From: a virus
DNA length: 50,224 nucleotides
Virus record (IMG/VR): IMGVR_UViG_3300013100_000003
Coordinates: 1-50,224 of that record
Strand: one strand, 5' to 3'
Positions 259 to 31,369 of the stretch are shown here, piece by piece. The translations under genes were made by a program, and so were the position numbers. The notes under the pieces were generated by a model. That model ran no database searches and was not told where the DNA came from. It worked only from the letters and a program-made list of their open reading frames with translations. The number at the start of each line of letters is the position of its first letter. Position 1 is the first letter of the stretch.

Positions 259-266
259 GTCTGCGA

Positions 267-313
267 ATAGCACTTTTTGCTAAAGACTCCCGGCAACCAT
301 TCCGCTATCATTC
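267..313 (+). promoter_or_regulatory. Marbox-type promoter P1
   Basis: The 20-bp box at 267-286 matches AYnGCACnnWnnRYYAAAYn at 13 of 14 specified positions. After 19 bp comes TATCAT (306-311) followed by TC. There is no TTGACA-like -35, so the box sits where an activator would replace it (class II layout). It lies between a terminator and the gene starting at 358. This is the only copy with 19 rather than 18 bp of spacing. Confidence 0.8.
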
Positions 314-357
314 TTTCCACGGCAACAACGCCGCAACTCAACAGAGAGATAATCACC

Positions 358-753
358 ATGTTACAGACTCGCAAAGTATTCATTTTCGCAAGCGTTGAAA
401 CTATGTCACGCGGTACTGATATCAAGCATTCAATCGTTGTTTCTGACTTTGACTATCGTCAGATTGAATCAATTAAAGATGATTACCTGTTTGTCTGTGA
501 GCGCGAGATCTCTTTTGATCTGCCAGAAGATGCAACCGGACAGGCGGCTGAAGCGATGGAAAACAAGCTGTCAGCCATTCGCGCCAAACACCACGCGGAG
601 CAGCAGAAGATCATTGACAGCATCGCCAAATTGCGCCAGCTTGCCGCGCCGGTAGAGGGCGAGCTGGTAGATGATCGCGGCCTGGTTGAGCGCAGCACGT
701 CGATCAATGCAGATGAAGCGGACGACGCAGATTTTAACGATCTGCCATTCTGA
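358..753 (+). CDS. Unknown early protein with an SSB-like C-terminal tip
   Basis: 131 aa. The start is ATG 358, downstream of promoter P1 and behind a purine-rich GAGAGATAA; an upstream in-frame ATG at 277 lies inside the promoter and is rejected. The N-terminal 60 residues are mixed alpha/beta, a charged helix covers about 65-100, and the end is acidic and finishes DADFNDLPF. That resembles the conserved tip of bacterial SSB (DFDDDIPF), used to recruit repair and replication enzymes. No OB-fold is apparent, and a true SSB is encoded elsewhere (30851). The function is unknown; a decoy or adaptor for SSB partners is inference. Confidence 0.8.
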   Translation: MLQTRKVFIFASVETMSRGTDIKHSIVVSDFDYRQIESIKDDYLFVCEREISFDLPEDATGQAAEAMENKLSAIRAKHHAEQQKIIDSIAKLRQLAAPVEGELVDDRGLVERSTSINADEADDADFNDLPF

Positions 754-30850: not shown

Positions 30851-31369
30851 TTAAAACGGAATGTCGTCGTCAAAGTCCATCGGCGGCTCATTGCTATTCT
30901 GTTGAGCTGGGCGCTGTTGTTGCCCTTGCGGACCGCTTCGCTGAGGTTGTTGCTGTGGTTGCTGAGGCTGGCCCCAACCGGTGTTAGATGCACTGCGATT
31001 GCCGCCACCATTTCCACCTTCAGGAGCCTTGCCGATCATTTGCATGGTGCCGCCAACATTTACCACGATCTCAGTTGTGTAACGATCCTGGCCGTCTTTT
31101 TGCCACTTGCGAGTTTTGAGCTGGCCCTCAATGTAAACCTGAGATCCTTTCTTGAGATACTCTCCCGCGATCTCCGCGAGCTTGCCGAAAATTACAACGC
31201 GGTGCCACTCAGTAAGCTCTTTAGTTTCCCCGGTATTTTTGTCCTTCCAGCTCTCTGAGGTGGCAATAGTCAGGTTAGCGACAGCGCCGCCATTTGGCAT
31301 GAATCGAATCTCAGGATCGTTGCCGAGGTTTCCGAGGATGGTTACTTTATTTACGCCGCGTGATGCCAT
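30851..31369 (-). CDS. ssb: Single-stranded DNA-binding protein
   Basis: 172 aa. OB-fold in residues 1-110 ([41 protein letters not shown]), a Gln/Pro/Gly linker and the conserved acidic tip ending MDFDDDIPF. Very like E. coli SSB, so it should interact with host repair and replication proteins. Confidence 0.97.

Follow-up and report, generated by a model that had tools for sequence, protein, structure and literature searches.

SSB serves as a hub that brings many repair, restart and nuclease enzymes to DNA. In phage T7, both the helicase-primase gp4, a non-SSB protein, and the ssDNA-binding protein gp2.5 bear an acidic tail with a terminal aromatic residue; neither tail has the D-x-P-F form, and their target is the T7 polymerase. 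On their own, the nine C-terminal residues of E. coli SSB suffice to bind PriA and the chi subunit, the tip peptides P9 and P15 bind both partners equally, with linker length adding nothing, and the 15-residue P15 binds RecO (most tightly), PriA and chi via the tip only (PMC7145534). The pockets that receive this C-terminal tip (SSB-Ct) are basic and take up the last Phe in a hydrophobic spot (PMC5872125), and the SSB C-terminal region strengthens the stimulation of PriA when it is fused to PriB (PMC8509808). The docking peptide is known; what appears to be new at the locus described here is its presence on an unrelated phage protein, and our searches of the open-access literature turned up neither a description of this protein nor one of a natural SSB-Ct mimic on a phage protein other than SSB.

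The locus lies in a 50,224-nucleotide stretch of viral DNA (IMG/VR record IMGVR_UViG_3300013100_000003; the window), in which a small gene starting with ATG at 358 and stopping with a TGA that ends at 753 encodes a protein terminating in DEADDADFNDLPF (C-terminus ...INADEADDADFNDLPF; Table 1). A mechanical ORF call also offers an upstream TTG at 277, but the ATG at 358 corresponds to the start position annotated in relatives. Like the SSB-Ct of bacterial and phage SSBs (DFDDDIPF), this end places acidic residues, a hydrophobic residue, Pro and a terminal Phe at the close of a disordered tail; unlike it, the window tip reads ND for DD, with N at the position where the SSB tip has D. An earlier note on this DNA had proposed an SSB-like tip on a protein that is not an SSB, in a phage that also encodes a true SSB with the standard tip, and all of this is borne out. 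Acidic -PF ends occur in only two of the 360 mechanically called window ORFs of at least 40 aa, namely the tip-bearing protein and the phage SSB, whose own C-terminus reads MDFDDDIPF. From a rough composition estimate, the chance that a gene ends in at least two acidic residues followed by a hydrophobic residue, Pro and Phe is ~6e-5, or ~0.005 per 85-gene phage. The tip goes beyond chance, and no relation of its carrier to SSB is detectable by sequence. The tail of the phage SSB (window 30854-31369, minus strand) also matches the end of PHROG 2544, a family of unknown function (positions 303-362 of 362 columns), which hints that SSB-like tails occur in a further phage family.

Table 1. Features of the tip-bearing gene and its phage context, in window coordinates
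Feature	Position	Strand	Basis
Promoter-like element ATAGCACTTTTTGCTAAA ... CCGCTATCATTC upstream of the tip gene	264..320	+	Like element before the gene in all five phages
Promoter-like element copies ATAGCACTTTTTGYTAAA ... CCCGCTATTATTC	270, 1766, 40495, 42817, 43423, 48671	+	6 copies, 0.2 expected
Gene for the 131-aa tip-bearing protein	358..753	+	ORF and tblastn matches; ortholog of AAM37 gp69, PSKM gp66, DIBBI_067
N-terminal part, residues 1-59, predicted mixed alpha/beta	358..534	+	Two agreeing low-confidence AlphaFold2 models
Long helix, residues 60-96 (predicted)	535..645	+	AlphaFold2 models, low confidence
Conserved motif APxxGxLxDDRxL, residues 97-109	646..684	+	Alignment; lowest pN/pS of the protein, 0.17
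Variable linker, residues 110-117, indels among relatives	685..708	+	0/5 to 1/8 identical to window, with gaps
SSB-Ct-like acidic tip, residues 118-131, DEADDADFNDLPF end	709..750	+	Alignment with relatives
True SSB of the phage, canonical tip DFDDDIPF (presumably the protein imitated)	30851..31369	-	PHROG 44 SSB, 5e-58

Relatives of the protein were recovered by tblastn only from the Dibbivirus phages AAM37, PSKM and DIBBI, with which the window shares genes, local gene order and ~37-67% protein identity over the genes compared, and from Erwinia phage Snitter, a Drexlerviridae phage whose homologue is distant. The family, which belongs to enterobacterial and plant-associated phages, comprises five known members, four of them from one phage genus or its near kin. 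No relatives were found in plasmids, and none by pattern search in sequenced bacterial species; when 394 genomes of the order were searched with a profile, the two hits (E 0.002-0.004) were alanine/lysine-rich, coiled-coil, lipoprotein-like proteins that we judged spurious.

Acidic residues followed by hydrophobic-Pro-Phe are present in all five members. AAM37 and DIBBI end in DEADDATFDDFPF, PSKM, where an insertion (SKV) interrupts the tip, in EDAQYSKVDDFPF, and Snitter in DEADDAEFDEIPFR; the three Dibbivirus proteins share a DDFPF end. Over the 14 tip positions, identity to the window is 10/14 for AAM37 and DIBBI and 7/14 for PSKM with its three-residue insertion. In the deepest comparison, that with Snitter, 30/93 body residues (32%) are identical, against 0/5 in the gapped linker and 9/14 (64%) in the tip. 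Among the four Dibbivirus-type sequences, pN/pS is 0.45 in the N-terminal part, 0.29 in the helix, 0.77 in the linker and 0.32 in the tip, with the APxxGxLxDDRxL motif lower still. The SSB-Ct-like tip follows a variable, disordered linker (most of the tail has a pLDDT below 50) that is saturated with changes and indels, and it is retained in every member; it is truly conserved across deep divergence.

Conservation in relatives, which the earlier note had made a check on its proposal, holds in that all of them keep the tip and is qualified by the C-terminal Arg that Snitter adds. The Phe is the very last residue, with a free carboxylate, in four of the five members including the window; the exception is Snitter (PFR*), whose DEIPFR* end arises because the bases following CCATTC read CGA TAA rather than the TGA of the window, adding one codon (L004 3360-3381). 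Since the terminal carboxylate belongs to the bound epitope and the Arg lies past the Phe, canonical docking is doubtful in Snitter: the extra residue should weaken it, and the Snitter end predicts lost or altered binding in that relative, a natural negative control. The same Arg weakens the general claim of SSB-tip mimicry.

The Dibbivirus tips call for similar care. The DNA of AAM37 and DIBBI is ~95% identical from the tip on into the genes that follow but ~50-57% identical over most of the body, and their tips accordingly count as one observation rather than two. The tips of AAM37, PSKM and DIBBI, to judge from the shared near-identical DNA block, are not independent, which leaves three lineages (the window, the Dibbivirus trio and Snitter) as independent evidence. 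Between AAM37 and DIBBI, the body of this gene diverges strongly between near-identical flanks (L001 3016-3356 versus L003); it looks to have been swapped or to have diversified among close phages, which share the tip and the downstream DNA. A second Dibbivirus protein (PSKM gp48, DIBBI_048; L009 37335-38138, L010 36831-37634) ends in SEIPF or KEIPF, a weakly SSB-tip-like sequence; tblastn found no match to it in either the window or AAM37.

In contrast to SSB, the carrier of the tip has no SSB sequence homology and no OB-like model, and its body is acidic. It has no Pfam match, including to SSB PF00436, and no significant PHROG match, including to PHROG 44; single-member PHROG hits at E 0.006-0.5 differed for each member and were not taken as real, and PDB sequence hits at E 0.05 or worse were rejected, leaving no PDB sequence relative. 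Two AlphaFold2 runs, using three sequences, reached pLDDT 53 and 57 and placed strands at 2-12, 26-28 and 43-54 and helices near 33-39 and over a long stretch at 60-96, with the tail mostly lacking confident structure. At this low confidence the strand order is not OB-like in either model, and a Foldseek search with the first (pLDDT 53) returned no hit at E <0.1. We do not claim a coiled coil for the long helix, whose periodicity gave no consistent heptad. The pI is 4.4-4.8 for the whole protein and 5.0-5.6 without the last 34 residues, which makes ssDNA binding unlikely. The AAM37 record applies the label 'structural protein' to a number of its virion proteins but lists gp69 as hypothetical, a weak indication that the tip protein is absent from the particle, and the protein is probably non-structural.

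SSB-like ends reach well beyond this family. In exact-end scans over 2.9 million viral contigs (IMG/VR), FDDLPF* gave 79 matches. Of these, 73 terminate ORFs that are at least 60 aa long and fall into about 26 clusters; a single cluster, with 11 members, is SSB, and about 62 of the 73 ORFs lie outside it. FDDFPF* gave 11 matches, with the six in ORFs of at least 60 aa including the tip-protein family and three RIIB-like proteins. These counts are of contigs and clusters and not of independent origins. The scrambled controls FDLDPF* and PFDDLF* matched 6 and 5 times, never at the end of an ORF of 60 aa or more. The tip is strongly enriched at phage ORF ends well beyond SSB, and SSB-like tips on non-SSB phage proteins look, from these sequences, real and recurrent. 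Other FDDLPF* carriers match a helicase, a RecA-dependent nuclease, a GIY-YIG/UDG protein, ThyX, DUF3127 and DUF736, and some of the unannotated ones may be unrecognized ssDNA-binding proteins. The RIIB-like proteins, on the metagenomic phage contigs L014, L016 and L019 (PHROG 609, 7e-77), end in GDDFDDFPF; like the window protein they are non-SSB phage proteins with an SSB-like end, but their body is unrelated to its body. Compared with T7 gp4, the carrier here is a small protein with no recognized enzymatic domain. The artificial PriB-SSBc fusion, which can affect PriA, likewise places the SSB C-terminal region on a non-SSB protein (PMC8509808), but it is man-made and PriB is itself an OB-fold ssDNA-binding protein.

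The gene is preceded by a promoter-like element (ATAGCACTTTTTGYTAAA...CCGCTATYATTC), of which the window carries six plus-strand copies where 0.2 would be expected. Because the gene follows this repeated element, its early expression is plausible; the element fits coordinated, perhaps early, expression of the tip gene, with the timing read from this arrangement. Several copies, though not the one that precedes the tip gene, enclose an inverted repeat between the two boxes (e.g. GCGGG..CCCGC). The element also occurs in Snitter, a phage of another family.

The best explanation, which we consider about evenly balanced between right and wrong, is that this small, strongly acidic, probably non-structural protein displays an SSB-Ct imitation on a disordered tail and docks on SSB-interacting proteins. 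By analogy with the isolated SSB peptides, RecO, PriA and chi could also bind such a tip when another protein carries it. We suggest that it would enter the SSB-Ct pocket common to host genome-maintenance proteins (RecO, PriA, chi, ExoI, RecQ and others) and possibly also dock on phage proteins that use the same SSB-Ct docking. A free acidic DLPF or DFPF end should compete for these sites, since the isolated SSB tip binds partners on its own and the pockets fit the last Phe. Partners would then be held away from SSB-coated DNA by competition or redirection, which we favor over delivery to ssDNA because the body is acidic and no ssDNA-binding fold was seen; the long helix might allow oligomerization. 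For this protein we infer the binding, the identity of the partners and the competition. The suggestion in the earlier note, that the tip recruits or titrates host SSB partners, is in this light reasonable and partly supported.

The main rival, a phage-internal role in which the tip docks on the Erf-type annealing protein, the helicase or the primase as a replisome or recombination accessory, replacing or joining the phage SSB, is rather unlikely. The genes for the SSB, an Erf-like annealing protein and an exonuclease VIII-like protein lie side by side, a primase is also encoded, Snitter likewise encodes an SSB, a recombinase and an exonuclease, and the last six residues of the HK620 phage SSB are required for it to function with the Sak4 annealing protein (PMC5928155). 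However, the tip gene lies far from the SSB-Erf-exonuclease block, on the opposite strand and within a cluster of small genes of unknown function, and such a role leaves the loss of the canonical end in Snitter unexplained. That end, together with the acidity of the whole protein, instead lends weight to a tail doing something else, such as DNA mimicry, autoinhibition or solubility, with its SSB-Ct likeness incidental; nor is the chance estimate per phage vanishing, given the many motifs that a reader could notice. We regard such a coincidence as unlikely, considering that D-x-P-F or E-x-P-F is specifically retained beside a variable linker, at the very last residue in all but Snitter, and that such ends are strongly enriched over scrambled controls in viral ORFs. 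It is less probable again, indeed quite improbable, that the protein is an atypical ssDNA-binding protein on which the tip acts as it does on SSB. Of the annotated families among phage proteins ending in FDDLPF*, SSB is the best represented, and several of the others look ssDNA-associated, but the body is acidic even without its tail, the two low-confidence models show no OB-like strand pattern, no match to an SSB family was obtained and the phage already owns a full SSB.

Taking docking on SSB-interacting proteins as the preferred reading, a wider proposal is that many phages use SSB-Ct-tipped non-SSB proteins to capture host SSB-interacting proteins (nucleases, helicases and replication restart factors), with the present family as a dedicated decoy whose body diversifies while its tip is kept; we advance this tentatively and hold it to be rather unlikely. 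The control scan suggests that SSB-like tips recur on phage proteins other than SSB and can be catalogued. If the reading is true, a docking-tip mimic would allow a phage, at little cost, to block or divert several functions of its host together. Defenses that sense phage SSB include Hachiman, Nhi, Retron-Eco8, AbpAB and Hna (listed in PMC13381803), and an SSB-tip mimic, if real, would join them as a further point of contest around SSB.
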